From Proteromonas lacertae (taxonomy: Eukaryota; Sar; Bigyra; Opalinata; Proteromonadidae), in NCBI GenBank assembly GCA_002245135.1, contig NGBS01001174.1, forward strand, positions 1 through 64,000: 64,000 nucleotides of DNA, in the 5' to 3' direction. The first letter of the stretch is position 1, and each line of letters starts with the position of its first letter. Shown piece after piece: positions 8,133 to 32,815 of this stretch. The position numbers and the translations under genes were made by a program. Below the pieces are notes generated by a model. The model searched no databases, had not been told where the DNA came from, and worked only from the letters and a program-made list of their open reading frames with translations.

Positions 8133-8951
8133 TCACTAGGAGCATTTATATTGAGAATAACTCATATAAAATATAAATATGATATAAAAACAAAACCTCC
8201 TCTATTTATATCTAATTATAATGTAATTCGCAAAGAATGCTTAAATAGTGTTGTAAAACATTCTAGTATAGAGTATATAAAAGACAAAACATGGTATTTG
8301 TTAATTGGTGATTCTCATTTAATTGTATGGTCTCCATTACTCTATAAATTAGCTTTGCTTAATAACATGTACATTTTATTTATATGGACAACAATTAAGA
8401 GAATGATTGTATCTAAATATAGGAATATCGAATTAGAAAATTATTTAATTAATATATATAATATTAATAAAATATTCACAACCAATTATATAAATAGCAT
8501 TAATAATAATAGTAAAACTATTCAGAATATAATAATTGAGTGTATTAAGGAATTAAAAAAATTCACAGATAATGTATATTATATTGAAGATACACCATAC
8601 TTGAAATTCAATCCTCATTATTACATAAAGAATAATATAAATAATTCAAAATTTTCTTTACATTCAAATAAATGTATATTCTATATATATAGAATAATTA
8701 AAAGTTATTTAAATGAAAAATATTTATCATTCATTGATGTAATATGTCCAAATAATGTATGTAGTTTACTTCATTCAAATATTCTTATGTATGTAGATTA
8801 TCATCATTTATCTTATGATTTTGTAAGATTAATAAAAGATATTATTTTAAATAAGAATAAAATAATTTTAGAAATTGAATCACTTCATAGAATAAGAAAT
8901 GAAGATTATTTTCATCTACATTTCTTAAATAATACATCTAGATTTTGCTAA
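8133..8951 (+). pseudogene. 5'-truncated acyltransferase/SGNH gene (C-terminal part only)
   Basis: The frame is identical to the C-terminal 272 residues of the intact acyltransferase at 17009-18817. It has lost all ten or so acyltransferase membrane segments and starts at the junction with the GC-rich block, without a usable ATG. The retained part is the SGNH-like domain with the GDSH nucleophile motif and a C-terminal DxHHLS motif. Even if translated it would be cytosolic, so it is most likely dead. It lies 27 bp upstream of the epimerase copy. Confidence 0.8.
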
Positions 8952-8978
8952 CTAAAATTTATTTTATATTTTCTGTGA

Positions 8979-10025
8979 ATGACAATTTTAATAACAGGGG
9001 CTGCTGGCTTTATTGGTTTTCATTTAATTGATTCTTTATTAAATGATGACTATAATATTGTAGGTGTTGATTCATTATGTGATTACTATGATTTAAATTT
9101 GAAGTATAAAAGACTTGAACTATTAGGTTACAGCAAAACTGATATTGACGATCATAATTTTGTGGGTAAAAGAAAAGGTTTTACTTTTGTGCAATGCAAT
9201 ATTAAAGAAAAAGAAACAATTAAAAACTTATTCTATACATATCATATCGAATATGTTGTTAATTTAGCAGGTCAGCCAGGTGTTAGATATTCAATCGAAA
9301 ACCCTGATATCTATATTCAAGATAATATTGTGGGATTTATGAATTTATTAAACATTTGTGTAGAATGCAAGATCAAACATTTTGCGTATGCTAGTTCAAG
9401 TAGTGTTTATGGATTAAATCAGACTATGCCCTATAAAGAATGTGATTGTGCAGATCATCCTGTTAGTTTATATGCTGCAACAAAAAGATGTGATGAAATA
9501 TTAGCACATTCTTACAGCACCATATACAAACTACCTACAACTGGTCTTAGATTTTTTACTGTTTATGGACCATGGGGGAGACCAGATATGGCAGCATTTA
9601 AATTTGTTGATGCTATTTTAAATGATAAACCAATTAATATATTCAATAATGGAAATATGACAAGAGATTTTACTTATGTTGATGATATAGTGCGTGGTAT
9701 AAAATTAATAATCTTTCACCCTCCTCATGAAAGGAATAGTTTAATTGCTGATCATGATTGTTCAACTTCTTCATCTCCGTTTGAAGTATATAATATAGGA
9801 AGTTCAAATCCTATTAGTTTAATGGAATATATACATTATTTTGAAAAAATATTAAACAAAGAAGCAATTAAGAATTTTATGCCAATGCAAAAAGGAGATA
9901 TAGAAAATACATATGCTGATATTACAAAAATTAACAAACAATTACGTTATGAACCAAAAATAACAATTGAAGATGGTATTAAAAGATATATAACATGGCA
10001 TAAAGATTATTATTATGATAAATAA
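8979..10025 (+). CDS. UDP-glucuronate 4-epimerase (extended SDR), copy 1
   Basis: 348 aa. It interconverts UDP-glucuronate and UDP-galacturonate, supplying an acidic sugar donor. The Rossmann motif GAAGFIG is at residues 7-13, the catalytic pair Tyr165/Lys169 is in SLYAATK, and SSSSVYG is at 139-145. The family-typical stretches NLAGQPGVRYS and LRFFTVYGPWGRPDMA are present, which point to the GAE/CapI subgroup rather than plain GalE. The length is normal and there is no signal peptide or membrane anchor, so it should be soluble (bacterial CapI-like form). The sequence is identical to the copy at 15935-16981 in the other repeat arm. Horizontal origin is plausible but untested. Confidence 0.9.
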   Translation: MTILITGAAGFIGFHLIDSLLNDDYNIVGVDSLCDYYDLNLKYKRLELLGYSKTDIDDHNFVGKRKGFTFVQCNIKEKETIKNLFYTYHIEYVVNLAGQPGVRYSIENPDIYIQDNIVGFMNLLNICVECKIKHFAYASSSSVYGLNQTMPYKECDCADHPVSLYAATKRCDEILAHSYSTIYKLPTTGLRFFTVYGPWGRPDMAAFKFVDAILNDKPINIFNNGNMTRDFTYVDDIVRGIKLIIFHPPHERNSLIADHDCSTSSSPFEVYNIGSSNPISLMEYIHYFEKILNKEAIKNFMPMQKGDIENTYADITKINKQLRYEPKITIEDGIKRYITWHKDYYYDK

Positions 10026-10177
10026 TACTTTTACACAACCTATTATTAATTTCATTTTTATATGTATTGTAATTTATCCCCATTAACTAACATTTTAAAC
10101 TGTTGTTGTTAATGAATCTTTGAAATATACACAATAAGTTTAAATCTTATGATTTCTAATCGTATTATTTTTTCTAT

Positions 10178-11032
10178 TTATATATAGCTAAATCCATGCC
10201 AGCATATATCATTCTCTTTGTTTTCTGTTGTGATTATTTTAGCTTTTCTGTGATAATATTTATTTAATTTTTGATATTCTATACTTAGTTTTCTATAAAT
10301 GATAGCCATATGCATATCTTCTCTATAAATTATTCTTTTCTCTTTCAATAATTCTTTGTATATTTGCATTATTAAATTGCTATTTATTATAACGAATCCT
10401 CCTGCTACAAATTGTGGGAAAAATGAATAAGGATAAACTGACTTTGGTAGATATACAGATGAGTTAGTATTTCTATTTACTTTCATTTTAGGGTAGTAGA
10501 ATCCTGATATTAAAGATTTGTGTTGATAAATGTTAATATATATGTATATTAATGGAATATTGGGATATATATCATCATCTATTTTTATAATATAATCAGA
10601 TTTCAGACTATTAGTATAATAATATTTGAATATATTACATGTTAAGATTGTTAGGTTATAATAATTATCTATTACATCAACGCCAATTATATCATTATTG
10701 TTTTCTAATTTTATTTTGTCTACTATCCCTTTTGTAGCTATTATAAAATAGTAATTACATGTTAATCTTTTGCAAATGTATATCCACGTTTTCTTTATAT
10801 TTTTTCTATAATTTACATGTGCTGTAGATGATTCTATAAAAAATAATATTTTATAGAAACTATTAGTGTTGGATTTAATTGAATAATTATATAAAAAAAC
10901 ATCTTCTATTTGTTTATGATTATTGTAATTTTGATTCTTATTATCATATGTATTGTTTAATATTTTTGCTCTTGAAATAATCCATTTTATAATTACAATA
11001 AAAAAAATAACGAAATATATACTATTTGTCAA
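10178..11032 (-). CDS. GT31-type glycosyltransferase, copy 1
   Basis: 284 aa, type II membrane protein: hydrophobic anchor at residues 5-20, then a lumenal catalytic domain. GT31 (beta-1,3-galactosyl/GlcNAc transferase) marks are visible in order: ESSTAHVNYRKNIKKTW (about 67-83), DNYYNLTILT (122-131), the metal-binding DDD at 152-154, VAGGFVI near 210, and EDMHMA near 232 in place of EDVyvG. It should transfer a hexose or HexNAc in beta-1,3 linkage; the sugar cannot be told. It is convergent with the epimerase (about 150 bp between stops) and identical to the copy at 14928-15782. Confidence 0.83.
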   Translation of the reverse strand: MTNSIYFVIFFIVIIKWIISRAKILNNTYDNKNQNYNNHKQIEDVFLYNYSIKSNTNSFYKILFFIESSTAHVNYRKNIKKTWIYICKRLTCNYYFIIATKGIVDKIKLENNNDIIGVDVIDNYYNLTILTCNIFKYYYTNSLKSDYIIKIDDDIYPNIPLIYIYINIYQHKSLISGFYYPKMKVNRNTNSSVYLPKSVYPYSFFPQFVAGGFVIINSNLIMQIYKELLKEKRIIYREDMHMAIIYRKLSIEYQKLNKYYHRKAKIITTENKENDICWHGFSYI

Positions 11033-11097
11033 AATGTGTGTATTTTAAAAACTATCAAAATTTACAATTGTTTGTTAATTAGGGCTAGATCTTTTAA

Positions 11098-12261
11098 TCA
11101 TAGATGAATATTAAATAGTTTCATTACCTTTTTTATACGAGTAGTAATTAATATTTCATTTTTGCTTTTATTCTTTGTAAGTAATTTTGTATCAGGACAT
11201 CTTTTCTTTATATCGCTATTGAAATGCCTACTGTGTCTTACATATAATATATTAGACGATATATATTTCTTTACTACTTTTTGTTTTGAAAATGCTTCAT
11301 GAGAGTTTATTACTACAAATTTATTTGTATCAATCATTAAGTACTTATGATTATATCCATCAGTTGTTGGACAATATCTCATAATAGAAAATATATCTAT
11401 ATCTTTTAAAGAACTATTTTCATATATTTCTATTCTATCATATTTATTATCAATTTCAAAATCTGTTTTAAAAAAGAAAGAATGCACATAAAATAATTCT
11501 CTTCTAGGAATTGAATTAATTAATTCCTTATAATTATTTGAAATAACTGGCCATAATACCTCATCTAGATCTAAAAATATAAAGTGGTTGTACTTAGTTT
11601 TGTACTGATTAAAACAATGATTTATTTTTAAACTATGTAAATGTTTCAAACTAATATTTCTTTCTTGATGATGTAAATAAATATCAGTCTGTAGTTGATA
11701 TACATCTATAACACCAATGCTACTATAATATTTTAATATGTTCTTCACCCTTTTAGATGATGAATATAAATAAAATACTAACTTAGAAACACCAAAGAAT
11801 AAATTAGACTCTATTAAACCTATTAACAATGCTGGTCTATCAAAATTTGACATAACTGGATTGCATGAAATGAAGCTATGCTTTTTACTTCTTTTAGCTA
11901 TTTTTATCCTTACAGTCACATTGTTTATTATTATTGAAGATGGAGTCTGATTTAATTCAGTCAATATTTCCATAAAATATAATATTATATTGTCATAATA
12001 TCTATATATAATATTGCACTTTTTGTTTAATTTATAATATTGAACTACACAATTATATAGATTTAACTCTTTTCTTGTTGAATGAATTATTACTTTAATT
12101 TTTTTCTCATAATTGATATATTGAACAGATGTAATATATATTTCATTATCTAATTTATATACATGTAACTTAATTATAAATGAATTACTTTGATTAATAA
12201 TCTTTATACTAATATAAAAAATAAAAGAAATTGATAATATAATCATAACAAAATATAACAT
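11098..12261 (-). CDS. GT92 (DUF23)-family glycosyltransferase, full-length copy
   Basis: 387 aa. An N-terminal membrane anchor (residues 2-22) is followed by a stem and the GT92 domain. The hallmark is CFNQYKTKYNHFIFLDLDE at about 216-234 with DLDE as the DxD-type metal site, plus HSHE-like and RHSRHF stretches towards the C terminus. GT92 enzymes such as nematode GALT-1 add beta-1,4-galactose to fucose. Only the last 273 residues are duplicated in the other repeat arm; the first 114 lie outside it. The start codon is 37 bp from the end of the GT2 gene at 12272, on the same strand. Confidence 0.8.
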   Translation of the reverse strand: MLYFVMIILSISFIFYISIKIINQSNSFIIKLHVYKLDNEIYITSVQYINYEKKIKVIIHSTRKELNLYNCVVQYYKLNKKCNIIYRYYDNIILYFMEILTELNQTPSSIIINNVTVRIKIAKRSKKHSFISCNPVMSNFDRPALLIGLIESNLFFGVSKLVFYLYSSSKRVKNILKYYSSIGVIDVYQLQTDIYLHHQERNISLKHLHSLKINHCFNQYKTKYNHFIFLDLDEVLWPVISNNYKELINSIPRRELFYVHSFFFKTDFEIDNKYDRIEIYENSSLKDIDIFSIMRYCPTTDGYNHKYLMIDTNKFVVINSHEAFSKQKVVKKYISSNILYVRHSRHFNSDIKKRCPDTKLLTKNKSKNEILITTRIKKVMKLFNIHL

Positions 12262-12271
12262 TTTTTATTAG

Positions 12272-13060
12272 CTAACATTTACTATGAGGAATATATACAC
12301 CTAGATTATATTTGATTAATACATATTTATATTTCTTCATTATTAATCTATAATTTAATTCTGTGTCTTCAGCTCTATAATACATCCAACTTTCATTATA
12401 TTGGTTTATTTTTAATATCATTGTTTTTCCAGATAACCATGCATTATGTATAGGAAGTCTATAATTCAAATATTTGCAACACCACATCTGTTTTATTTTT
12501 TTATTCATATTTTTATAATAAGAATAGTAAATATCTATAGGAGTGTAATTATATGATATTCTATCTAATTCTAAATCATTATTGTCTGATTCATATAAAT
12601 TAGTAATGTTATAGGTGTAAGAATGTAGTATCATATCTAAATTGGTATATTTTATAAATGTATTATATATTATTTTAATTCTATATTTCGACATTAAATC
12701 GTCTGAATCAAAAAAACTAATATATTTACATTTAGATAATTGAATACCTGTATTTCTATTTTCAGCTTGATTATGTTTATGTTTTTTATAATAAATAATA
12801 TATACAACACCATAAAACCTTTTTACATGAATTGCAGCTGTATTACATTCGCTTACTACAATAATCACTTCATCTGGTTTTAAAATAGAATGGTGAATCA
12901 TTTTTTTAATTCTATTTTTACATATATTATATGTAGAGAATATAGTTGGTATAACTAGAGTAATTTTACATTTATTAAATACATAAACATATCTGAATGT
13001 AATAAGTAATACAATATTTATCATAAAGATGGAGATATATTTTATCATTAATAATAGCAA
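12272..13060 (-). CDS. GT2-family glycosyltransferase with N-terminal anchor
   Basis: 262 aa, single copy, located between the inverted-repeat arms. Membrane segment at about 6-27, then a GT-A fold beginning ITLVIPT (33-39). AENRNTGIQLSKCKYISFFDSDD (99-121) combines the family's nucleotide-binding and DxD features, and RAEDTELNYR near 232 is the usual catalytic-base region. A typical inverting GT2 that extends a glycan chain; donor unknown. The 5' end is about 65 bp from the divergent HtrL-like gene. Confidence 0.83.
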   Translation of the reverse strand: MLLLMIKYISIFMINIVLLITFRYVYVFNKCKITLVIPTIFSTYNICKNRIKKMIHHSILKPDEVIIVVSECNTAAIHVKRFYGVVYIIYYKKHKHNQAENRNTGIQLSKCKYISFFDSDDLMSKYRIKIIYNTFIKYTNLDMILHSYTYNITNLYESDNNDLELDRISYNYTPIDIYYSYYKNMNKKIKQMWCCKYLNYRLPIHNAWLSGKTMILKINQYNESWMYYRAEDTELNYRLIMKKYKYVLIKYNLGVYIPHSKC

Positions 13061-13124
13061 TATATATTATTTATTCTTCTAAAACATAAAAAATAAAGTA
13101 AAAGAATATATATTTGTAACATCT

Positions 13125-13874
13125 ATGTATTCTGGCAAATCAAAACATTCCTATAATGAGTATAAAAGATGGATAGTTAGTTTTTCCAATATTGTTAAAG
13201 ATAATGTATATATTTTTTGCAATAATGAAGGACTTAAGTTGCTAACTCCTCAATTGAGAAAATTTGTTAAAGTGATAAATAATGTATTTGATCTTGAAAG
13301 AATAAAGAATTATGAGAATAATTATAAATCTATGTGGAAAATTGATCCAGAAAGAGATTATCACAATTATCGACTATACGCTATATGGAATGGAAAAATA
13401 AGTATGTTAAAATATGTATCAGATCATGTAAAAAGTAAAATATATATATGGATCGATATTGGATCTAATAGAGAAAATAAATGGTATAAAACCTTTCCAT
13501 CCAAAACAAGAATTAACTACCTTCAAAATATTACGAAAGATTCTTCTATATATTTCTTTCTAATGAACAATTTTCCCAACACTAGTAAAACAAAAATGGA
13601 ACTAATTACAAACAATTGCATTGAAGGTGGAACATTTGGTGGATCACGAAAAGGTATCAAGAAATACTTCTATACATTTTTTTCCCTTCATGATAGATTC
13701 TATAATATGAATCAGTTTGTAGGAAAAGATCAAATATTGTATAACACTATAGCATACTATAATCTAAATAAAGTAATTCTATTCAAATATAAATCAAACT
13801 GTTGTAATAATGATAAATGGTTAAGATTTTATGATTTTTATGCTAATTTAGATTGTGCTGATGTTGTCATTTAA
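13125..13874 (+). CDS. HtrL/YibB-like putative glycosyltransferase, possibly 5'-truncated
   Basis: 249 aa from the ATG at 13125. It contains the features I associate with the HtrL/YibB family: a Lys-rich W-x-I start, YAIWNGKISMLKYV, the acidic WIDIGSNRE near residue 110, EGGTFGGSRKG, and VGKDQILYN near the C terminus. The frame is open upstream to 13083 and encodes residues (EYIFVTS) that match its paralog at 19.0-19.9 kb, but there is no ATG upstream and no membrane anchor. The annotated start therefore cuts into the first strand of the domain. It may be a truncated copy, or a first exon may be missed. Confidence 0.58.
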   Translation: MYSGKSKHSYNEYKRWIVSFSNIVKDNVYIFCNNEGLKLLTPQLRKFVKVINNVFDLERIKNYENNYKSMWKIDPERDYHNYRLYAIWNGKISMLKYVSDHVKSKIYIWIDIGSNRENKWYKTFPSKTRINYLQNITKDSSIYFFLMNNFPNTSKTKMELITNNCIEGGTFGGSRKGIKKYFYTFFSLHDRFYNMNQFVGKDQILYNTIAYYNLNKVILFKYKSNCCNNDKWLRFYDFYANLDCADVVI

Positions 13875-14029: not shown

Positions 14030-14862
14030 TAATAAACAATGTGACTGTAAGGATAAAAATAGCTAAAAGAAGTAAAAAGCATAGCTTCATTTCATGCAAT
14101 CCAGTTATGTCAAATTTTGATAGACCAGCATTGTTAATAGGTTTAATAGAGTCTAATTTATTCTTTGGTGTTTCTAAGTTAGTATTTTATTTATATTCAT
14201 CATCTAAAAGGGTGAAGAACATATTAAAATATTATAGTAGCATTGGTGTTATAGATGTATATCAACTACAGACTGATATTTATTTACATCATCAAGAAAG
14301 AAATATTAGTTTGAAACATTTACATAGTTTAAAAATAAATCATTGTTTTAATCAGTACAAAACTAAGTACAACCACTTTATATTTTTAGATCTAGATGAG
14401 GTATTATGGCCAGTTATTTCAAATAATTATAAGGAATTAATTAATTCAATTCCTAGAAGAGAATTATTTTATGTGCATTCTTTCTTTTTTAAAACAGATT
14501 TTGAAATTGATAATAAATATGATAGAATAGAAATATATGAAAATAGTTCTTTAAAAGATATAGATATATTTTCTATTATGAGATATTGTCCAACAACTGA
14601 TGGATATAATCATAAGTACTTAATGATTGATACAAATAAATTTGTAGTAATAAACTCTCATGAAGCATTTTCAAAACAAAAAGTAGTAAAGAAATATATA
14701 TCGTCTAATATATTATATGTAAGACACAGTAGGCATTTCAATAGCGATATAAAGAAAAGATGTCCTGATACAAAATTACTTACAAAGAATAAAAGCAAAA
14801 ATGAAATATTAATTACTACTCGTATAAAAAAGGTAATGAAACTATTTAATATTCATCTATGA
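14030..14862 (+). pseudogene. GT92-family gene lacking its first 114 codons
   Basis: The 273 residues are identical to residues 115-387 of the full GT92 at 11098-12261. The membrane anchor and stem are gone, and the frame enters at the repeat boundary with no native start codon; the only candidate near the break is GTG. The DLDE metal site is retained. Without an anchor it would not reach the secretory pathway, so I treat it as a duplication by-product. Confidence 0.75.
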
Positions 14863-14927
14863 TTAAAAGATCTAGCCCTAATTAACAAACAATTGTAAAT
14901 TTTGATAGTTTTTAAAATACACACATT

Positions 14928-15782
14928 TTGACAAATAGTATATATTTCGTTATTTTTTTTATTGTAATTATAAAATGGATTATTTCAAGAGCAAAAATAT
15001 TAAACAATACATATGATAATAAGAATCAAAATTACAATAATCATAAACAAATAGAAGATGTTTTTTTATATAATTATTCAATTAAATCCAACACTAATAG
15101 TTTCTATAAAATATTATTTTTTATAGAATCATCTACAGCACATGTAAATTATAGAAAAAATATAAAGAAAACGTGGATATACATTTGCAAAAGATTAACA
15201 TGTAATTACTATTTTATAATAGCTACAAAAGGGATAGTAGACAAAATAAAATTAGAAAACAATAATGATATAATTGGCGTTGATGTAATAGATAATTATT
15301 ATAACCTAACAATCTTAACATGTAATATATTCAAATATTATTATACTAATAGTCTGAAATCTGATTATATTATAAAAATAGATGATGATATATATCCCAA
15401 TATTCCATTAATATACATATATATTAACATTTATCAACACAAATCTTTAATATCAGGATTCTACTACCCTAAAATGAAAGTAAATAGAAATACTAACTCA
15501 TCTGTATATCTACCAAAGTCAGTTTATCCTTATTCATTTTTCCCACAATTTGTAGCAGGAGGATTCGTTATAATAAATAGCAATTTAATAATGCAAATAT
15601 ACAAAGAATTATTGAAAGAGAAAAGAATAATTTATAGAGAAGATATGCATATGGCTATCATTTATAGAAAACTAAGTATAGAATATCAAAAATTAAATAA
15701 ATATTATCACAGAAAAGCTAAAATAATCACAACAGAAAACAAAGAGAATGATATATGCTGGCATGGATTTAGCTATATATAA
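14928..15782 (+). CDS. GT31-type glycosyltransferase, copy 2
   Basis: Identical in sequence to the 284-aa GT31 at 10178-11032: anchor at 5-20, DDD at 152-154, EDMHMA near 232. Complete with its own ATG and about 65 bp of shared upstream sequence, so it should be as functional as copy 1. Both copies then double the dosage of this activity. Confidence 0.82.
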   Translation: MTNSIYFVIFFIVIIKWIISRAKILNNTYDNKNQNYNNHKQIEDVFLYNYSIKSNTNSFYKILFFIESSTAHVNYRKNIKKTWIYICKRLTCNYYFIIATKGIVDKIKLENNNDIIGVDVIDNYYNLTILTCNIFKYYYTNSLKSDYIIKIDDDIYPNIPLIYIYINIYQHKSLISGFYYPKMKVNRNTNSSVYLPKSVYPYSFFPQFVAGGFVIINSNLIMQIYKELLKEKRIIYREDMHMAIIYRKLSIEYQKLNKYYHRKAKIITTENKENDICWHGFSYI

Positions 15783-15934
15783 ATAGAAAAAATAATACGA
15801 TTAGAAATCATAAGATTTAAACTTATTGTGTATATTTCAAAGATTCATTAACAACAACAGTTTAAAATGTTAGTTAATGGGGATAAATTACAATACATAT
15901 AAAAATGAAATTAATAATAGGTTGTGTAAAAGTA

Positions 15935-16981
15935 TTATTTATCATAATAATAATCTTTATGCCATGTTATATATCTTTTAATACCATCTTCAATTGTTAT
16001 TTTTGGTTCATAACGTAATTGTTTGTTAATTTTTGTAATATCAGCATATGTATTTTCTATATCTCCTTTTTGCATTGGCATAAAATTCTTAATTGCTTCT
16101 TTGTTTAATATTTTTTCAAAATAATGTATATATTCCATTAAACTAATAGGATTTGAACTTCCTATATTATATACTTCAAACGGAGATGAAGAAGTTGAAC
16201 AATCATGATCAGCAATTAAACTATTCCTTTCATGAGGAGGGTGAAAGATTATTAATTTTATACCACGCACTATATCATCAACATAAGTAAAATCTCTTGT
16301 CATATTTCCATTATTGAATATATTAATTGGTTTATCATTTAAAATAGCATCAACAAATTTAAATGCTGCCATATCTGGTCTCCCCCATGGTCCATAAACA
16401 GTAAAAAATCTAAGACCAGTTGTAGGTAGTTTGTATATGGTGCTGTAAGAATGTGCTAATATTTCATCACATCTTTTTGTTGCAGCATATAAACTAACAG
16501 GATGATCTGCACAATCACATTCTTTATAGGGCATAGTCTGATTTAATCCATAAACACTACTTGAACTAGCATACGCAAAATGTTTGATCTTGCATTCTAC
16601 ACAAATGTTTAATAAATTCATAAATCCCACAATATTATCTTGAATATAGATATCAGGGTTTTCGATTGAATATCTAACACCTGGCTGACCTGCTAAATTA
16701 ACAACATATTCGATATGATATGTATAGAATAAGTTTTTAATTGTTTCTTTTTCTTTAATATTGCATTGCACAAAAGTAAAACCTTTTCTTTTACCCACAA
16801 AATTATGATCGTCAATATCAGTTTTGCTGTAACCTAATAGTTCAAGTCTTTTATACTTCAAATTTAAATCATAGTAATCACATAATGAATCAACACCTAC
16901 AATATTATAGTCATCATTTAATAAAGAATCAATTAAATGAAAACCAATAAAGCCAGCAGCCCCTGTTATTAAAATTGTCAT
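15935..16981 (-). CDS. UDP-glucuronate 4-epimerase, copy 2
   Basis: 348 aa, identical to copy 1 at 8979-10025 with the same GAAGFIG, Tyr165/Lys169 and GPWGRPDMA features. It starts 27 bp after the stop of the upstream acyltransferase on the same strand, an operon-like spacing that is striking for a eukaryote. Identity with copy 1 implies either a very recent duplication or ongoing gene conversion between the arms. Confidence 0.9.
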   Translation of the reverse strand: MTILITGAAGFIGFHLIDSLLNDDYNIVGVDSLCDYYDLNLKYKRLELLGYSKTDIDDHNFVGKRKGFTFVQCNIKEKETIKNLFYTYHIEYVVNLAGQPGVRYSIENPDIYIQDNIVGFMNLLNICVECKIKHFAYASSSSVYGLNQTMPYKECDCADHPVSLYAATKRCDEILAHSYSTIYKLPTTGLRFFTVYGPWGRPDMAAFKFVDAILNDKPINIFNNGNMTRDFTYVDDIVRGIKLIIFHPPHERNSLIADHDCSTSSSPFEVYNIGSSNPISLMEYIHYFEKILNKEAIKNFMPMQKGDIENTYADITKINKQLRYEPKITIEDGIKRYITWHKDYYYDK

Positions 16982-17008
16982 TCACAGAAAATATAAAATA
17001 AATTTTAG

Positions 17009-22510: not shown

Positions 22511-22536
22511 CTTAAAAATATTACTTAAAACTGCAT

Positions 22537-23619
22537 ATGCATGAATATATATATGTATTTTTGTTTATTTCTATCTTAATTATTCTTGTTTTTACTACCA
22601 TAGTGAATATGGAAATAATAGAAAGTATTTATCGCTTATATGATTATGAGTTGTATATAAAAGAAATAAAAAACAAGTTGTTCTTTTATGTAAAAAAATA
22701 TGCAAACTGTAAAAATTATACTGCATCTCCTTTGTATTGTGGACATAAATTCGAAGGATTTAAATTACAAAAGAAAGGATTTCATCCTCAAAGAGTATTA
22801 GTAAATCTCAGCAACTATGATAATATTAATATTTCAAAATCACCATTTTGCAGAAATGCACTAATAATTATTGGAATTGTAACTGCTCCTGAACAATTTA
22901 TGGAAAGAATATCTCTTCGCTTAGGATATAAATTATATAAAAACATAACACTTCTTTTTTTTACTGGTTTATCAGCAAATAATACATACAATTATCTACT
23001 TAAAAAGGAATATAATTATTATCATGATATAGTTATATTCAATTTCATTTCACACTATTTTAATTCAAGCTTACTTCTGATATTAGAGATGAATTGGATA
23101 TATAAAAAATGCAGAAAATTTAAGTATTTAATTTATCATACACCAGATGTTTTTTTCAACTATTACTTATTTTACAGAAAGTATATATTAAAATCTTTTA
23201 CATATCCTCTTATTGCTCAAATACTAAAGAAAAATAGAGTTTTAAGAAATAATAGAAGTAGATTCTATGTTCCTTATGAAATATACAATCATTCATACTA
23301 TCCTCCGCAACCAAATGGACCCTTAATTATATTTTCTATAAGATCAATAAGGAAAATGATTTCAAATATTCATAAAATGAAAATGACGTTTTGGATGGAT
23401 GATGTTTATCTATCTTTTTTAATGAAAGAAACTAATATTGTTGGATATAATCTAAAAAATGTTATTAGTCTTTATCCAGTACAAATCAAAAATCTACCTA
23501 ATCTATCGTTTATATTATCAAGTGTATATTATATACATTCTTTACCACCAGCTGCTATTCTCTTTTTGATAAAAAGTGCAAATAAATACTACACATATTC
23601 ATCTATAAAATATATATAA
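22537..23619 (+). CDS. GT31-like glycosyltransferase with degenerate metal motif
   Basis: 360 aa, N-terminal anchor at about 4-22. GT31 features: ALIIIGIVTAPEQFMERISLR (the usual R-x-x-IR-x-TW region, altered), YHDIVIFNFISHYFNSSLLLI (D-F-x-D-x-Y-x-N-L-T equivalent), then HTPDVFFNYYL where the DDD/DxD should be, and WMDDVYLSFLM replacing EDVyvG. The canonical DDD is reduced to a single Asp in TPDV, so catalysis may be altered or lost. Starts only 26 bp from the divergent fucosyltransferase start and abuts the next gene with no gap. Confidence 0.68.
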   Translation: MHEYIYVFLFISILIILVFTTIVNMEIIESIYRLYDYELYIKEIKNKLFFYVKKYANCKNYTASPLYCGHKFEGFKLQKKGFHPQRVLVNLSNYDNINISKSPFCRNALIIIGIVTAPEQFMERISLRLGYKLYKNITLLFFTGLSANNTYNYLLKKEYNYYHDIVIFNFISHYFNSSLLLILEMNWIYKKCRKFKYLIYHTPDVFFNYYLFYRKYILKSFTYPLIAQILKKNRVLRNNRSRFYVPYEIYNHSYYPPQPNGPLIIFSIRSIRKMISNIHKMKMTFWMDDVYLSFLMKETNIVGYNLKNVISLYPVQIKNLPNLSFILSSVYYIHSLPPAAILFLIKSANKYYTYSSIKYI

Positions 23620-24498
23620 ATGAGATTTAAAGTGATTTTTATAGCTAATAGTTTAATTTCTTTTCAATTTATTTTTATTTTTATTTATTATATAAATATA
23701 TATTATACAGAATATTTATGTATATATAATAGAATATTAGTTTCAGGAGCATCAGAAAACCATGGAAATTTGCTTATATTAATGATGTATAGAATAGAAA
23801 AGGTTGAGAATAATCTATGTTTTATAATATGGGATTTAGGTCTAAGCGTTAGTCAAAAGAATAGAGTATTTAATATAATAAATTATGTAAATAGTAAATT
23901 AAATATAAACATTTCTATTTTCTATCATATGTTTAATTATTCATATTATCCACCACATTATAATATAAAAAATAATGCTGGTTATTATTCTTGGAAACCT
24001 GCTATTATTTATGAAACGTATAAGTTATATAAAAGAACATTATTTTGGTTAGATGCTGGATGTTTTATAAATGGATCATTAAAATCAATATACCTACATA
24101 TTATTAATATGGAAGTGTTTTCTATATCTGCTGGTCATTCTATTAAAAAATATACCCACCATTCATTAATAGAATTATATAATGTAACACAACAAGTGCA
24201 GAATAAAACAATGTGTGCTGCTGGTGTTGTAGGATTTCTTTATCCTTCATTGTTTTGTATGAAAATTATCAAAATGTGGAAAGAATGTGCAATGAATAAA
24301 GAATGCATTGCACCTGAAGGATCCAATAGAAAAAATCACCGACAAGATCAAAGTGCACTATCAATAATACTCTATCAAAATGGATATCAACATAAATGTA
24401 AAATATATACAAATTTAAATATTTCATTACAATATGATGGAAAAATAAATAAATATAATAACAAAGAATATTTAAATTTTCTTAAAGAAGTTAAGTAG
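23620..24498 (+). CDS. DUF1647-like predicted glycosyltransferase
   Basis: 292 aa, anchor at about 9-30. It shows the pattern I know from the nematode-expanded DUF1647 family: VSGASENHGNLLILMM, FIIWDLGLS, YYSWKPAIIYETYKLY, FWLDAGC (acidic putative metal site at about residue 147), and AAGVVGFLYPS, RQDQSALSIIL. These resemble GT-A enzymes but biochemical function is not established to my knowledge. Its ATG follows the preceding stop directly (23619/23620), suggesting joint transcription or a very short 5' UTR. Confidence 0.66.
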   Translation: MRFKVIFIANSLISFQFIFIFIYYINIYYTEYLCIYNRILVSGASENHGNLLILMMYRIEKVENNLCFIIWDLGLSVSQKNRVFNIINYVNSKLNINISIFYHMFNYSYYPPHYNIKNNAGYYSWKPAIIYETYKLYKRTLFWLDAGCFINGSLKSIYLHIINMEVFSISAGHSIKKYTHHSLIELYNVTQQVQNKTMCAAGVVGFLYPSLFCMKIIKMWKECAMNKECIAPEGSNRKNHRQDQSALSIILYQNGYQHKCKIYTNLNISLQYDGKINKYNNKEYLNFLKEVK

Positions 24499-24975: not shown

Positions 24976-25932
24976 TTAAAAAAATAAGCAAATAGAAGGT
25001 TTGTTTTTCATTAAATTACAATAATATAGATGTAAGTAATATATTTCATTTGGAATAAGCCTATGAATCATAATAAAGTTTCTAATATTATAAATAATGC
25101 AATTTCCTTCTCCTATACTTTTATTTAAGTATTTAAAATTATATAAAGAAATATTAGCTCTTGAAGCTAATTGTCCTATATAAACATCTTCAGGATATCC
25201 ATAACAATCATGATTTATATCCCTTAATGATATATTTACTAATTGATTTAATTTATTATATGGTATAACATATCCCATTCCACTAGGAAAGTTCTTTAAA
25301 ATATAACCCCAAATATATTTACTTCCGTCATTTTTCTTATTTTGTAGATTATTTAATAAGTCAATATTAAAGAATGAATCTGAATCATGTTTTATTAACC
25401 ATTCAAAACTAATATCTGTTGAAATTGACCATAATAGCATATTGTAAGTTTGAAGTGTAAGTGAATAGTAGGATGAAAAAAATCTAAACTGTATAATATC
25501 TCTATTTAAATTACTCTCTTCTTCAATTTTTTTGTTTATAGTTATAATTTTACTCTTTCCAGTTACAAAAAGAAAAGATACATTTTTATATCTTTTATAA
25601 ATTTCTCTGAAAGTATATCTTTCATAAATCATCTCTGGTTCTGTATTTATTAGAATTAAATATTTACAATTCTTAAATAATATATGGTTAGAAATGGAAT
25701 AATTTAATCTATTTAAATGTAAATGAATTGGTTTATAACTTCTTTTTTTCATATATTTTGATGTTGTTCTTCTAATGCATGTTACTCTTCTAGTTTCAAT
25801 AAAGCATTCATTTATTTTATAGAAATCTTTTCTTAATTCTGATTTTATTTTATTCCTTACAATGGTATATTTATAAATATTATATACTATTAATATATAA
25901 ATTATATTAATTATTATGTGAAAAATAAACAT
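24976..25932 (-). CDS. GT31-family glycosyltransferase
   Basis: 318 aa, anchor at about 4-20. Good GT31 order: YERYTFREIYKRYKNVSFLFVTGKS, then NRDIIQFRFFSSYYSLTLQTYNML, the metal site KHDSDSFFNI (DxD form HDSD), and YPEDVYIGQLA close to the EDVyvG consensus. Of the GT31 proteins in this island this one is nearest the textbook pattern, so it is probably active. It overlaps nothing and ends 21 bp before the next minus-strand gene begins. Confidence 0.8.
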   Translation of the reverse strand: MFIFHIIINIIYILIVYNIYKYTIVRNKIKSELRKDFYKINECFIETRRVTCIRRTTSKYMKKRSYKPIHLHLNRLNYSISNHILFKNCKYLILINTEPEMIYERYTFREIYKRYKNVSFLFVTGKSKIITINKKIEEESNLNRDIIQFRFFSSYYSLTLQTYNMLLWSISTDISFEWLIKHDSDSFFNIDLLNNLQNKKNDGSKYIWGYILKNFPSGMGYVIPYNKLNQLVNISLRDINHDCYGYPEDVYIGQLASRANISLYNFKYLNKSIGEGNCIIYNIRNFIMIHRLIPNEIYYLHLYYCNLMKNKPSICLFF

Positions 25933-25953: not shown

Positions 25954-26853
25954 TTACTGTAACGATAAAACTTTAGAAACATAAATCTTATCATATGGAA
26001 TATAATTGAAAATACTTTTTTGCAAAGGAATAATGATTCTTTCCCATATTTTTTTAACATTTTTATTCATTTTAGGTAGATGAATATCAATAACATTATT
26101 AGTATTGAAGTGTTTATTAAATAGATTTATATTTCTATCAATTCTAGTATTAATGAAATTTCTTTCATTAAATATTACCTTTGATTGAAAGTATTTCCAT
26201 CTTCTTATTTTATCTCTCATATATACTTCATCCATATATTGATAACCTTCAAAATATTTGTATCCTTTATTCATTAAAGATATAATTATATTTACTATTA
26301 TGTCATGTATATTATTTGTGTTAAAATCATGTTGAAGTATGTCTTCCCATATACGTTCGTTAGCAGCCATGTAACACATAGCCCATCTTCCTTTATTATT
26401 GCCAAATCCATATCCATTCTTTCCAAATGATTTAATATTCAATTTGTTAATCTTGTAATTATAGAAATATATTTGTGATAAAGGTAAAATATCTGAATCT
26501 GATATATAATAAATGGTGCTATATGATGATTTTTTAATAAATTTATACCCAAATATTCTAGATATTTTTGAAGCATAATGTAATGGTATTGAACTATTAT
26601 ACTTTAATAGTATCACATCACTTCTTAGAGTTTTTAACTTGTTTTTTATGAATAGTATATCATTTGTTAGTTTATGGTACACAAGTAATACTATTGTACA
26701 ACAGCCAATTTTATTCCATGCTTTTACTACAATAGGTAAATAGATTATATAGTTATATTTCGCTGCAGATAGTTGAACGTAAATATTACATTGATTTGAT
26801 TTATTTACAAGAAGATATATATATATTATTATAAAAATCATCCATTTAGCCAT
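25954..26853 (-). CDS. Predicted GT-A glycosyltransferase with SDSD motif
   Basis: 299 aa with a hydrophobic N terminus (3-18, signal or anchor). The central STIYYISDSDILPL (about 118-131) looks like a GT-A metal site, and GYGFGNNKGRWAMCYMAANERIW and YMDEVYMRDKI follow. I cannot assign a CAZy family. Lumenal location is inferred from the N terminus and neighbours. The gene is divergent from the GT92-like gene, with 27 bp between start codons. Confidence 0.58.
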   Translation of the reverse strand: MAKWMIFIIIYIYLLVNKSNQCNIYVQLSAAKYNYIIYLPIVVKAWNKIGCCTIVLLVYHKLTNDILFIKNKLKTLRSDVILLKYNSSIPLHYASKISRIFGYKFIKKSSYSTIYYISDSDILPLSQIYFYNYKINKLNIKSFGKNGYGFGNNKGRWAMCYMAANERIWEDILQHDFNTNNIHDIIVNIIISLMNKGYKYFEGYQYMDEVYMRDKIRRWKYFQSKVIFNERNFINTRIDRNINLFNKHFNTNNVIDIHLPKMNKNVKKIWERIIIPLQKSIFNYIPYDKIYVSKVLSLQ

Positions 26854-26880
26854 ATCAATATTATAATCTATAAATTAAAA

Positions 26881-28022
26881 ATGTTATTATTCTCATTTTT
26901 TATAACTTTTAACATTATATTAACTTTATTGTTGTATTTATGTAATACAATGATAGACAAATATGAAAATTTATACTTTTTAAAAATAACTGAGAATTAT
27001 TTTGTAACATCATCATTTTATGATTATAGGATAAATTCAATTAGAATTTTATATGGAGGAACAAAACATAATAATGATAGTTTAATGATTAAAATAGATG
27101 GTAAAATAGTAAGCAATTATTTAAATGAAATTTATGATGAATGTATTAAGTTTGATAGTGACTTTGATTTAAAATATGGAAATACAATTATATTATATCA
27201 CAAGGAACCAACATATATTTCCATAAATAATATAAAAATACCATTCATACAATCAAGTAAAAAGTATAGGTACTTTTTATCTGTTTGTATAACTGCAATG
27301 TATAATTTTAAAGCTAAAATGATGTTAAAACAATTACTTGAAATATATTTAGCTCTTGGTGTTGATCATTTCACAATTTACTATACCAGCTTTAGTGAAG
27401 ATGTTCATAATATATTGAAATATTATATAATGAAAAGAATTGTAAAATTATTACACTGGGAAAGAAATAATGTGACAATTAGAATGAGAAATTATGGTCA
27501 GTATATAAAGACAAATGATTGTTTGTATAGATATTTAGGTGAATCACATTATATTATTAATACAGATTTGGATGAAATAATTATTCCATTAAATTATCAC
27601 ACCTTAATTGAACTTATAAAAGATATACATAGCAAATACCCCAACAAAACTCTTTTCTTATTTTCTAGTAAAATGTTTATTAAGAATGAAACTATAGATA
27701 CGGAAATAAAAAAAATAAAATCCATTATATGTATCAGCATCATACAACTGATGTGAATATATTCTCTATAACCAAATGCTGTTATTCATACATTTTCTAT
27801 AAAAAATATATTGTTCATACAGATGATATGATTGCATTACAAATACATTATGCATGGAAAGGTAATATTGATGTTTATAATATACCTTATAAAGATGGTT
27901 ATTCTAGACATACTAGAAGGGTTGTTAACTTTTTGGCTAAAACTTATTGTAGAAAAATTGAATATGATAATAATTTATCGAAAGTATTACCACATATATC
28001 ACTTAAGTATGTTAATATTTAA
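26881..28022 (+). pseudogene. GT92-family gene with one frameshift at an A run
   Basis: Frame 1 (26881-27756) has the anchor, ALGVDHFTIYYTSF and INTDLDEIIIP (the DLDE site); frame 2 from about 27720 to 28022 gives the expected C-terminal part (DVNIFSITKCC, HYAWKGN). The break is at 27708-27715, an 8-A run inside an A-rich stretch; one extra A would restore a single frame of about 380 codons. No GT-AG intron bridges it. It could be a true loss, an assembly error in a homopolymer, or a length-variable tract. The last base of its stop overlaps the end of the convergent acyltransferase remnant. Confidence 0.72.
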
Positions 28023-29822
28023 CAAATTACATTATTATTTATATAATGTAGATAAAATCTCTTTTTGTATTTCATTTTGTAAATATTTTTAAAGTAAAAA
28101 ATTCTTTTATTCTTATTTAAAATGATATCTTTATATAAATCAACAAAATCATAAGATAAATGATGATAATCTACATACATAAGAATATTTGAATGAAGTA
28201 AGCTACATACATTATTTGGACATATTACATCAATGAATGATAAATATTTTTCATTTAAATAACTTTTAATTATTCTATATATATAGAATATACATTTATT
28301 TGAATATACTAAACGTGGTATTACCTCTATTATCTAATATATATCTATGTGGATTAAACTTTAAAACTGGTGTATCTTCTATAAAGTATAGAATTAATGA
28401 TATTCTTTTCAGTATTTTTATATATTTAATTATCTTTCTTTGTATTTGACTATCATTACATTTTAAGCTATTTACATAATTTGAAACAAACACAGATAGT
28501 ATCTTGTATAAATTACTATTATTTAATTCATTTGCAATTGATTCATATGTTGTGCTATACATATTAATAAGCTTAACCCAAATGAATAATAAGAATACAT
28601 TATTAAGTAATGCTAATTTATAGAGTAATGGAGACCATACAATTAAATGAGAATCACCAATTAACAAATACCATGTTTTGTCTTTTATATACTCTATACT
28701 AGAATGTTTTACAACACTATTTAAGCATTCTTTGCGAATTACATTATAATTAGATATAAATAGAGGAGGTTTTGTTTTTATATCATATTTATATTTTATA
28801 TGAGTTATTCTCAATATAAATGCTCCTAGTGATAAAGATAGTAATATTATAACATATTTATATTTCCTAATATATTTCAAGGGATATTCAATTGTATAAT
28901 ATGATAATACTGAATATATGATTATAGAAAATAAATAATTTGTAACTTTCTTATATTTATTTATCACTAACAATATATAATGCCATAAATATAAAGAATA
29001 TGATACTTCTCCTGCAAATGATATTGGAAAAGAACTGATTATTCTATTAATAGAATATAAATGATTATTTGTATTATAAATGATTGGAGTTATAGAAATA
29101 AGTGGTATTAAAGGATAAAAACTTGGATATATATTATTACTATTAAATTTAAATATGAAAATGAATAATATCATTAGCCCTACTATTGATATACTATTCA
29201 TATCAACTGTTAAATATTTTTGAGAAATAAAAGTAATAATGCCAAACAAAAATTCCCATAGCCTTGCTTTTAACATAAAATAAGCCAACTGAATATATTT
29301 TCTTGAAAGTAATATAGAATATATTAAAAATATAAAAGATAATAAATAGTTTATAATATCATTACTGAATAAAAACAGCGGGAATAAGATATAGAATTGT
29401 TCTTCAACTGATAAAGACCAAAAATGTAGTATAACTGATGGAGGCTGAGATTCATACATATAATCTATATTTTTATTGTAAAATCGAATATTTGATATAC
29501 CAAATATTGCATATCTGACATCACTCTGTATATCATCTGGATTATATTCTTTAAGATTGTTCATATTTATTAGCACATATAGCAAAACTATATAACTAAT
29601 TGGTATAATTCTTTTAATCCTATTAGAATAGAAATTGAAAATTATTGATAATTTTGTAGTGTTTTTGCTATTATAAACCATTTTCATTATATAACCAGAG
29701 ATAAAGAAGAATATATCTACGCCTATATATCCTGCTATTATATATTCTTTGTTATAATGATAAAATATAACTAATAAAACAGCTATACCTCTTAAACCAT
29801 CTATATCTTTTCTGAAGTTCAT
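28019..29822 (-). pseudogene. Mosaic, frameshifted acyltransferase-3/SGNH copy
   Basis: From the ATG at 29822 to about 28612 it matches 18817-17607 almost base for base, and the match begins exactly at the ATG. From 28610 to 28307 it diverges strongly while remaining homologous. From about 28306 to 28147 it is again nearly identical to 17301-17142, then diverges to a stop at 28019. The frame breaks exactly at the second junction, near 28305, where two bases are missing, so the protein ends at residue 508 after the GDSH motif. The rest of the SGNH domain is readable in the next frame. Confidence 0.8.
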
Positions 29823-29851
29823 AATTCATAATTGAGAAAATTTTGAATATT

Positions 29852-30911
29852 TTAATTTTTAATTTTTGATTTACAGTTTATTTGTTGTTTTAATATTTCG
29901 AGATACAAAGGGTCGTATATATCTTTTGATCCATCATAGAATGTGTAATTATTTCTATTTAATAATATATTTCTTCTGTTATAAAGAATTAGTAATGAAA
30001 ATGTACTTTTTGGTGATAAAATTAAATAATTGCATTTAGAAACTACTTCAATATCTCCTATTAATTTATCATAGAATGACATAGAATAATATACATTTCT
30101 ACCAATTCCGCTACTATGATTAATATTGTATCCATCTTTATATGCTATAGCATTTTTAATATACTTCTTTATTTTTGGTAGAAAAAGAAAACTATCGCTA
30201 GATACTATTAATGTGCAATTTCTATTTTTGCATATTTCTTGATATAAATTGTAAATTCTATATATTATTTTCTTCTCCACTTTACATGATTTCTTTTTAA
30301 ACATGCATATATCACCTAATCTAATGTGGCATCCTATGCTTAATACATCTTTATTAAATTGATATGTATTTTTAAACTTAATAGTTATATACTTCAGATA
30401 TATTTTAGAGTTTATTTGAATAACTTCATCATTATGATTATAATATCTGCTATTCAAAAGATCTAATTTCCGTAATTGATTTTTTATATGATCAATTTTC
30501 AATAATTGTGGTAAAAGATCATAATGAGATATTATTTCTGTGTTTGCTGTATTTGATGATAGTATTTCTCTAATAATACCTTGAAAAGTTTTACAATATT
30601 TATATCCTGAAAATATATACAATGTATAATTTGTTTTACTAACTATTTTTTTCTCTACACGAATGTCTTTTGAAAACTTTATTACTTTTAACATTGAATT
30701 TAAGTTATATACTAATATTTTATAATTAAATTATACATATTAATTGCCTTTCACTAAGTAGCGATAGTATCAAAGCTGAACTTATTCCTAACAATTTATT
30801 TCCTAAACCTCCTGAATTAGGTTGAGTATATATACTAATTTTTTTCCCCTTATTTTTAATAATAAAGTAAATTAACAACAACATAAAAACTAAACTAAAA
30901 AAACATAACAT
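29852..30911 (-). CDS. Fucosyltransferase (GT37/GT11-like), two exons
   Basis: Exon 1 is 30737-30911, a 25-nt intron (GTATAA...TATTAG) lies at 30712-30736, and exon 2 is 29852-30711; together 344 aa in one frame. An anchor at about 2-18 is followed by SGGLGNKLLGISSALILSLLSERQL, typical of plant-type GT37 and related alpha-1,2-fucosyltransferases, then IGCHIRLGD (motif I) near residue 200 and SKCNYLILSPKSTF near 290. It would transfer fucose from GDP-fucose. The intron has the same size and ends as those of housekeeping genes in the window, which argues that this island gene is spliced by the host. Confidence 0.75.
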
Positions 30912-30921
30912 TAACGAAGTA

Positions 30922-31779
30922 TTAAAATTTTAATGGGTGGAATAATTTATTTCTACATATTTCACTTTCTAATATCTCCATCCATTTCATTTCCGTTATT
31001 GATTTACCAGCATGAAAAGTATGTCCTATATACTTCTTAGGAATTTCTTGGTATGATAAATTATGGTAAAATACTAATTCAATCGTGCTTGTTTCAGTTT
31101 GTGAATGATAATGTGAACTTAAATCTTTCATCATCTTTTTGATATAGTTCTTTGACCATCTTTGAATATATTCTCTATTTGCATATCCAAAATTTCTTTG
31201 AAAGAATTTAAATCTTCTATTCAAATACTTATCTGTTGCACAATTAAACCACACCCATTTAGGATTAATAATTCCAACACCAGATGTTATTAAATCTTTC
31301 CTATTCTTTTTAAATATTTCTATTAATTTAAATAAATTTCCTGTAAAACCTACATCTTGCTCTATAATCCAAACATATTCATATTCAATATTTAGCTTAT
31401 TATATAAAGTTATTATTGACTCAGAATGAGATATCCATAACAACATCCTACTTCTTTTAAAACTACTACAATTACCTTTTAAAGAAGATAGATAAGGAAA
31501 TTTTATCAATACATCATTAAATGGTAGAACTACATTTGTTATTTTAACCTTACTAATCAAAGAATTATTTAATTTTTGTTTTGATAGTAAAAAGAATTGA
31601 TAGTAGTGTGGAAAATATGATTTCCATTTTATATATCTATAAATTTGTTTATATGTTGGATTATCAATTCTTATTACTATGCATGATTGTAGATGATTAC
31701 TTTTTGATATAATAAAGCTTATATATATGTATATAAGTATATTATATAATCCTATAAATAGTAATAATTTGTATTTCAT
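30922..31779 (-). CDS. Predicted glycosyltransferase with EQD motif
   Basis: 285 aa, anchor at about 5-24. CIVIRIDNPTYKQ opens the domain, RSRMLLWISHS is central, and EYVWIIEQDVGFTGNLFKLI (about 134-153) is the likely metal or donor site of a GT-A-like fold; HTFHAGKS lies near the C terminus. Family not recognised with certainty. Its start lies 31 bp from the divergent gene at 31811. Confidence 0.56.
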   Translation of the reverse strand: MKYKLLLFIGLYNILIYIYISFIISKSNHLQSCIVIRIDNPTYKQIYRYIKWKSYFPHYYQFFLLSKQKLNNSLISKVKITNVVLPFNDVLIKFPYLSSLKGNCSSFKRSRMLLWISHSESIITLYNKLNIEYEYVWIIEQDVGFTGNLFKLIEIFKKNRKDLITSGVGIINPKWVWFNCATDKYLNRRFKFFQRNFGYANREYIQRWSKNYIKKMMKDLSSHYHSQTETSTIELVFYHNLSYQEIPKKYIGHTFHAGKSITEMKWMEILESEICRNKLFHPLKF

Positions 31780-31810
31780 TACATAATCATTATATGATGA
31801 ATATAATTAA

Positions 31811-32815
31811 ATGATTTATAGAAATATAATTCTACTTTACGTTTTTCTAATCTTAGTTACATTTTTATTAATATTTCTAAAAAATTATTCAAATTATCAC
31901 ATTCAATATTATAATTATCATCTAAAACATGATGAAAATAATCAAAGTTTAATACTTTCATTTGCTTTAAACTATAATTATTCATGTATTAAATATTTCA
32001 TTTGTTCTTTAAATAAAACAAAATATAAAGGTACAACAATACTTTTTACATACAGTATTACAAAACACTTTAAAAATTATCTTTTAAATAGTAACATTAA
32101 TATAATAGAAATTCAAAAAGACTATCCATTTTATCCTAGTAATCATACACAATATCCAATACAAGAGAGTGATATATTAAAAAATTTGCATTATTTCAAA
32201 GGTAAATCATTTGTAACATATAGATATTTTATATTTAGATTGTTTCTAAAATATTATGGTTGTTTATACAAATACATACTTTTTACAGATATAAGAGATG
32301 TTATATTTCAACTAGATCCTTTTAATTGGAATATAAAAAAGGGAATATATTAAGTAGAAGAATATCCTCATAGAAAAATTAAAAGCGATAAATCTAATTC
32401 AATATATGTTAAATATTATAAACCAAATGAAGCTATATATAATAGTACAATAATAAATGGAGGAATAATATTCGGTTCATATCCTGAACTTCTATTATTT
32501 TTAAATGATTTCCTGCAGTATATATGTTCATTTAATTGTAATGCAAATGATCAAGGAGGTATTAATACATTTGTTAGGAGAATGAATCTATTTATCTATC
32601 CTATTTATATTTTAAATTCATCACATTCACCTGTTAGAACATTAGCCTTATGGTTGTACGATTCTCCTAAATGCTGTTTACCTATGAACAATTATATAAA
32701 GAATCAAGATTCATCATTACCTCATATAATTCATCAATATGATAGAGCAATAAGAATTAATAACAATTATACACATAAGATTTATAGAGAATATTTGAAT
32801 TACTATTTTAAATAG
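31811..32815 (+). pseudogene. Glycosyltransferase-like gene with a single in-frame stop
   Basis: One frame runs the whole length and is interrupted only by TAA at 32351-32353, between NIKKGIY and VEEYPHR. The anchor is at about 5-24. Before the stop lies ILFTDIRDVIFQLDPF, a D-x-R-D-V-x-F-Q motif found in a group of GT-A-like proteins; after it come INGGIIFGSYPEL and NDQGGINTFV. The coding sequence is otherwise undamaged, so the nonsense change looks recent. No plausible intron removes the codon. Confidence 0.68.

Follow-up and report, generated by a model that had tools for sequence, protein, structure and literature searches.

Capsule-like clusters of glycan-synthesis genes, some mirror-imaged in the assembly, in the protist Proteromonas lacertae

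Introduction

Bacterial capsule and O-antigen (cps, wb*) loci bring together, at high density, unrelated glycosyltransferase genes and genes for nucleotide-sugar enzymes and for O-acylation or O-methylation, with a content that varies by locus. To our knowledge eukaryotes usually scatter their glycan enzymes. The subject of the present work is an island with such a content in a protist, Proteromonas lacertae (assembly GCA_002245135.1; 50.2 Mb, 1181 contigs), where it occupies positions 8133–32815 of what is here termed the window, i.e., the whole stretch of 64,000 nucleotides analysed, with which contig C308 (NGBS01001174.1; 142,029 bp) begins. What sets it apart from the bacterial loci is the eukaryotic chromosome, the type-II anchored enzymes, the use of both strands, the palindromic arms and the existence of many loci per genome. 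A Pfam scan of 20 island frames, from which mirror copies and small fragments were excluded and in which matches were listed to E ≤ 0.1, gave no flippase, polymerase or exporter. Because of that the island, dense as it is in genes for transferases and modifying enzymes, and lying on no bacterial replicon, does not strictly count as a capsule locus.

Is there a closer precedent among eukaryotes? The Leishmania side-chain transferases SCG and SCA constitute an expanded family of eukaryotic transferases by which a surface glycan is modified. Both internal clusters and telomeric localization are described for their genes (PMC6787982). The likeness extends to the expansion of a transferase family, a surface glycan and a partly telomeric position, but the Leishmania families are of one kind, whereas here unrelated families are mixed with epimerase, acyltransferases and methyltransferases, and palindromes are involved; they are the nearest eukaryotic precedent found. 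No earlier report of such eukaryotic clusters was found in the open-access literature.

Two further comparisons are with systems noted for rearrangement. Some clusters at telomeres, mosaic genes and, probably, ectopic recombination are features in common with the subtelomeric variable families (VSG, var, EPA/FLO), although the genes here encode enzymes under purifying selection, not surface antigens, and not all of them are subtelomeric. Sex-chromosome ampliconic palindromes also have near-identical inverted arms (in the stretches read, those here measure 3.8 to ~9.5 kb) that carry gene families and may undergo conversion between arms, but here the palindromes are at ~nine or more loci in a protist and the genes are for glycan synthesis.

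Gene content of the island

The island consists of 22 genes or gene pieces with a coding fraction of 0.902, and as a gene cluster it is real. From the left, it opens with the C-terminal part of an AT3-SGNH gene, cut at the 8132/8133 junction (8133–8951, forward strand; SGNH, E 1.8e-12) and identical to the C-part of 17009–18820. The adjoining epimerase gene (8979–10025, forward; Epimerase, E 2.5e-53) matches at 50–54% proteins some of which are named UDP-glucuronate 4-epimerase, and has the GxxGxxG and YxxxK stretches that are SDR motifs; no NCBIfam model reached its cut-off. On sequence it falls within the UDP-glucuronate 4-epimerase family, and activity on UDP-glucuronate (UDP-GlcA) is predicted. 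Then, all on the reverse strand, come a GT31-type transferase (10178–11044; Galactosyl_T, E 3.7e-20; DDD motif), a full copy of a GT92-type transferase (11098–12261; Glyco_transf_92, E 4.8e-16) and a GT2-type transferase (12272–13066; Glycos_transf_2, E 4.8e-9), followed on the forward strand by a transferase-like gene of no family, GTx13 (13083–13874), which lacks a Pfam match and is 60% to 19018–19893.

Beyond this there is a reversal, as part of the same gene set returns in mirror image: a second, truncated GT92 copy within the inverted repeat (14030–14862, forward), a GT31 copy (14916–15782, forward; 100% to 10178–11044), an epimerase copy (15935–16981, reverse; 100% to 8979–10025) and a full AT3-SGNH acyltransferase of 602 amino acids (17009–18817, reverse), in which Acyl_transf_3 (E 2.7e-24) is followed by SGNH (E 1.6e-11), both above cut-off, the OafA-type architecture.

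The remainder starts with a second GTx13 member (19018–19893, forward; four relatives only at E ≤ 0.001, 55–61%), a CgtA-type transferase (20616–21476, forward; CgtA, E 8.1e-21) and a frame-split gene (21493–22516, reverse; NodZ, E 0.005, below cut-off) with an HIR motif in its translation, which we take to be fucosyltransferase-like. Two GT31-type transferases (22537–23619, forward, E 3.8e-18; 24976–25932, reverse, E 1.1e-14) are separated by a type-II transferase-like gene with an N-terminal hydrophobic stretch and no Pfam family (23620–24498, forward), and the second of them adjoins a transferase-like gene of no family with a DSD motif (25954–26853, reverse). A GT92-type transferase (26881–28022, forward; E 2.8e-26) is frame-split here and has a relative on C447 with one open frame. 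The second AT3 gene (28033–29822, reverse) has an N-terminal part identical to 17607–18817 and a divergent, frame-split C-terminal part. Three transferase-like genes complete the island: one with no clear N-terminal anchor but with an HIRLGD motif and relatives at C445 and C340 (29852–30694, reverse), one of type II and no family, 54% to a C445 gene (30922–31779, reverse), and one of type II with an in-frame stop (31811–32815, forward), of which there is an intact allele on C880.

How do the assignments compare with those of the first-pass annotation, which was made from the letters of the sequence alone? Its dense island of about 20 genes or copies is upheld by the 22 found and by the 90% coding; its intergenic gaps of 0–50 bp apply to just over half (≤50 bp in 12 of 21, the median being 29 bp), and in 7 of the 21 they are 150–722 bp. 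The curated Pfam cut-off is passed by 11 of the 20 frames (SGNH, Epimerase, GT31 three times, GT92 twice, GT2, CgtA and AT3 twice), and so the epimerase, OafA-like, GT31, GT92 and GT2 labels stand, with three distinct GT31 genes above the Galactosyl_T cut-off, two of them with DxD, and two distinct GT92 genes above that of Glyco_transf_92. Its HtrL-like and DUF1647-like labels fall away, neither family being matched in the scan of the 20 frames, and the GT37/11-like one is weak, the NodZ match being its counterpart. Other searches added little: 7 of 10 proteins had no NCBIfam match and the remainder only generic epimerase and acyltransferase models of use, a Protein Data Bank (PDB) sequence search gave nothing for the AT3 or CgtA frames, and the predicted structure of GTx13, with a predicted local distance difference test (pLDDT) score of 43.8, was too poor for structure search. 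The single N-terminal anchors that had been claimed are present, as a hydrophobic stretch (19-residue Kyte–Doolittle mean ≥ 1.8), in 12 of 15 distinct transferase frames. For two of those 12, 10178–11044 and 19018–19893, the stretch is upstream of the first in-frame ATG, and therefore these may start at a codon other than ATG or have a short 5′ exon. No further notable hydrophobic region was seen in the island frames except in AT3 and one frame-split gene. Most of the family-less frames have the length of a Golgi transferase and an N-terminal anchor.

Related clusters across the genome

The island is not unique but one of many such clusters. A profile search of the contigs found markers on 142 of them, with at least 152 matches for GT31 (150 of 188 candidates were scored, and 150 matches are listed), 112 for GT92 and 102 for AT3, haplotype copies being included in the counts. 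When the 364 hits used (150, 112 and 102, respectively) are linked at 15 kb, there are 171 clusters, and the 58 that hold at least two marker families cover 219 of the hits. AT3 is within 5 kb of GT31 or GT92 in 38 of 102 cases, and, as just 3.9% of the genome is in that span, its clustering with these transferases is above chance.

Parts of 13 further contigs, chosen for matching the island, were read and their mixes compared by family label. Two of them, C867 and C880, carry further copies of the window locus and C624 has no transferase frame in the stretch read; the remainder and the window make up approximately eight independent loci, the family mixes of which differ. Above cut-off, sister loci further contain GT10, GT15, GT61 and a TylF-type methyltransferase; one more methyltransferase match is below it. 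It is a side observation that C445 (152 kb) has different glycan clusters at its two ends, the right-end one being common to C952 and C447 at 99.7–99.8%.

Palindromes and a mosaic acyltransferase gene

The mirror image in the island is a 3798-bp inverted repeat with arms at 8133–11930 and 14030–17827 that are 100% identical, and a spacer of 2099 bp. Its outer end is within AT3 codon 331 and its inner end within GT92 codon 111, and the left edge of the island coincides exactly with the outer end of the palindrome.

The two AT3 genes have a different kind of relationship. An exact common tract of 1211 bp extends from their start codons (18817 and 29822) to inside the gene; it begins precisely at the start codon, without upstream similarity. 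Beyond it identity is 56–64% over 300 columns, then 91–92% over 200, and then 66%. The pair thus has the same acyltransferase half and a mostly different SGNH half, i.e., there is a mosaic gene.

Is such mirroring general? Mirror pairs were scored as equal-score, equal-length hits on one contig. The markers have 16 inverted pairs, on 10 contigs, and 1 direct pair; as C72 and C950 represent the same locus, the inverted pairs come from ~nine loci. A kinase control (131 listed matches on 94 contigs, being the best-scoring part of a larger family) has 1 inverted pair, on C248, and 0 direct. Hits in inverted pairs number 32 of 364 for the markers and 2 of 131 for the kinases (Fisher p 0.004), or 24 of 342 for the markers when C950, C71 and the contigs of the window locus are left out (p 0.022), both p-values being optimistic as the test assumes independent hits. 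As a separate observation, gene order is inverted around a ~650-bp palindromic element (4365–5006 of L012, a stretch of C974; 6185–6832 of L013) between two near-identical chromosome ends, and either a genuine inversion or a mis-join at the repeat could account for this flip.

The first-pass annotation had a single island, assembled by duplication and evolving by copy shuffling. The single island becomes one of many, and the dispersed host families that it had named as the opposite case are found in part for GT31 and GT92. Duplication is borne out by the palindromes and repeated gene copies, and copy shuffling fits with the mosaic AT3 gene, the palindromes and the gene sets that differ among the loci read.

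Clusters at telomeres

Arrays of TTAGGG are no more than ~4 kb from some clusters, and they abut those on C974 and C981. The C974 array (1–520 of L012) directly adjoins a broken fucosyltransferase-like gene. At the homologous end, C981, the position of that array falls within the gene, which is kept there along with ~3.6 kb more before the telomere, and the end of C974 looks like breakage and healing. C310 and C971 start with telomere repeats, and their AT3 matches begin at 3537 and 1557; telomeric starts were found for 2 of the 20 contig starts read, one of the 20 being all N. A gene-blind list of seven telomeric contigs, taken from the first 100 of 350 array matches, has a GT31, GT92 or AT3 marker within 25 kb on C150 and C189 and not on C139, C170, C216, C366 and C367, i.e., 2 of 7, a count that may miss clusters as those on C974 and C981 are invisible to the three marker families. 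There are thus six examples of telomere-adjacent clusters (C974, C981, C310, C971, C150 and C189), and the AT3 gene of C189 nearest its telomere has internal stops. Clusters are also inside the long contigs C994 and C1066. A strict subtelomeric rule was dropped on account of these and of the 2 in 7; a telomere-side position holds for some clusters and is not a general rule.

Origin of the genes

Among the 120 relatives of the epimerase listed, of 8000, the five nearest are at 65–72%, and the next are at 50–54% and bacterial where the organism is named; against bacterial genomes the match is up to 51%. The three epimerase copies of this genome and the five nearest relatives form one clade with support 100/100. 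For AT3 two listed relatives are close (50 and 39%), and the others covering ≥90% are at ≤30%, again bacterial where an organism is named. One AT3 is nearer a metagenomic relative than it is to two AT3 genes of its own genome, in a weak tree where the long branches of C950 and C952 were joined. These trees were built from our own search hits only, 55 of 120 listed for the epimerase and 45 of 120 for AT3, with no eukaryotic outgroup.

Bacterial transfer of the epimerase and AT3-SGNH genes, one of the sources that had been proposed for the island, is plausible given these nearest named relatives. Giant viruses, another of those sources, found no support in IMG/VR: scans with the epimerase alone, with a GT92 alignment and with an integrase-like open reading frame (ORF) from left of the island confirmed no relative, and an epimerase alignment gave only matches of 36–50% (best 80 of 189). 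These were weak tests, as single-protein scans see close relatives only, and some relatives seen with the epimerase alignment had escaped the scan with the epimerase alone.

Interpretation and its rivals

What could the clusters be for? We lean, with some confidence, to the island being one of a large set of glycan-synthesis clusters for an O-acylated, uronic-acid-containing surface polysaccharide, a set that changes by inverted duplication, conversion and rearrangement. The epimerase would convert UDP-GlcA to UDP-galacturonate (UDP-GalA), and membrane-anchored transferases of unrelated families, probably in the Golgi and in mixes that differ per cluster, would assemble the sugars. The AT3-SGNH O-acyltransferases, and the methyltransferases in sister loci, would O-acylate or O-methylate the glycan, and the product would most likely be a cell-surface polysaccharide of a glycocalyx, scale or cyst wall. 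Clusters would grow and change by inverted duplication that leaves palindromes, through conversion or recombination within genes, and where some chromosome ends are rearranged; enzymes would be gained, lost and newly combined as inverted copies recombine.

Several observations weigh against this interpretation. To the lack of flippase, polymerase and exporter, the five of seven telomeric contigs without a marker, the clusters inside long contigs and the reservations about the mirror-pair test and its control must be added that 93 of the 171 clusters are single hits, many such genes being dispersed, and that gene-wide ratios of nonsynonymous to synonymous substitution (dN/dS) in 13 pairs give no sign of diversifying selection. 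For the antigenic diversity that the first-pass annotation had offered as a possibility, the same ratios indicate purifying selection. Further, at least four island gene copies are broken (31811–32815, the fucosyltransferase-like gene, the second GT92 and the second AT3), and two more are cut by repeat ends; sequencing error is a possible source of the broken frames.

One rival is a static repertoire, where enzymes for fixed structural glycans of scales or a cyst wall were locally duplicated, and where the palindromes are neutral and shuffling is not adaptive. dN/dS is 0.11–0.54 in all 13 pairs, the highest being that of the broken AT3 (several pairs have dS >1, and the estimates are rough), and the genes are under purifying selection. 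That, the many single, dispersed copies and paralogues that look old, going by the position of one AT3 in its long-branch tree, are what a static repertoire leads one to expect, but recent exact tracts, near-identical palindrome arms and the differing composition of the loci read are not, and we hold it to be a possibility of the lesser sort, though the foremost of the rivals.

Might the palindromes and the 8132/8133 join be products of fold-back or mis-joining, the true locus being single-copy with other flanks? The left arm is joined there to GC-rich DNA, whereas on C867 the arm is continued by a complete AT3 gene and a GTx13 gene, i.e., in a flipped or longer form. This could reflect a spacer that occurs in either orientation, a longer palindrome or a mis-join in one of the contigs, and a mis-join is possible for the left junction. 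The end of C584, where frames are broken, falls within a palindrome arm, and one kinase pair is also mirrored. However, one AT3 gene is not in the same state on the two arms of C184, and the centres of the C865 pairs are ~128 bp apart, neither being expected of pure fold-back, and the palindromes of C283, C865 and C932 are internal to their contigs; together these argue against a pure fold-back artefact. C340 independently has an arm with a different outer sequence. In addition, C880 covers 27582–35160 and 35667–41651 of the window at 99.6%, taking in island genes and flanking genes, one with a SPRY domain, its two blocks lying ~2.7 kb farther apart than on C308, and the right side of the island, being on both contigs, is firmer than the left. 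An artefact of assembly is accordingly judged unlikely as the explanation of the whole.

The interpretation we prefer has also to be set against the islands being cargo, brought by and moving with integrated viruses or large transposons such as that at 1–6496. That sequence is part of a multi-copy element present on at least 25 contigs, the window's included, the copies elsewhere being 95–99% identical (25 of 397 candidates were scored), and the similarity ends at 6495–6504 in 14 of the 24 others. Low GC, few introns and dense packing would fit with cargo, as would the presence of this element left of the island and the 6 of 25 element contigs with a marker within 10 kb, in comparison with 8% of the genome (p 0.013; one of the six is the window, and C436 and C888, with an equal GT31 match, are possibly a single locus). 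Against it, a marker is lacking within that distance for 19 of the 25 copies, and the IMG/VR results above, from weak scans, are also unfavourable. The element's ORF at 3766–5067 is integrase-like by eye only, with no match in Pfam or PDB; ten flank frames (nine left of the island and one at 33830–34639) had no Pfam match, where a Maverick/Polinton would have polB, integrase, ATPase and capsid, and a Maverick-like nature for the element is an impression. On balance we regard cargo as improbable. Contamination, with GC-poor islands from another organism, is highly improbable, for while GC is ~22% in the island and 31–38% on its left, and the nearest named relatives of two proteins are bacterial, the right flank (24–34% GC) is likewise ~25% beyond 37 kb, TTAGGG telomeres are at clusters and C880 joins island genes to flanking genes of eukaryotic type.

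Flanking features

The right edge of the island is formed by a partial copy (33087–33495) of element E, a ~650-bp inverted-repeat element; it is 87–92% to the copies on C974, C981 and C584 and is followed by element R (34662–36042), a repeated inverted-repeat element between island and host genes that has dozens of matching places genome-wide among the matches listed. Further to the right, Pfam matches above cut-off are of eukaryote type: SPRY, kinesin, snurportin, kinase and BTB. The segment 36406–36829 is related to a ~120-bp tandem repeat with long arrays on C624 and C411. To the left, GC-rich DNA (~38%) at 6497–8132 is between the multi-copy element and the island, and 84 bases of this DNA have a match on C434, close to a further copy of the element. 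Outside the window, toward the other end of the contig (C308:138973–140536), there are a fragment related to AT3 and a frame with a relative next to the C340 cluster, and the host part has one open frame of more than 2700 codons (C308:101757–109999), continuing past the stretch read.

Significance

How far might this go? Clusters partly founded on bacterial genes, amplified as invertible palindromes and exchanging enzyme modules by conversion, might constitute a combinatorial surface-glycan system that yields polysaccharide coats differing by cell or strain, against grazers, viruses or hosts. We put this forward tentatively, as a conjecture that goes beyond the interpretation preferred above. 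With dozens of mixed-family, capsule-like clusters, variation of a sugar coat by shuffling of gene content, as in bacteria, becomes testable in protists. The clusters offer candidate enzymes for new linkages, and their palindromes and mosaic genes are marks by which the shuffling process could be timed. For the organism itself, mirror-imaged clusters of this sort may let the sugars of its surface change quickly.

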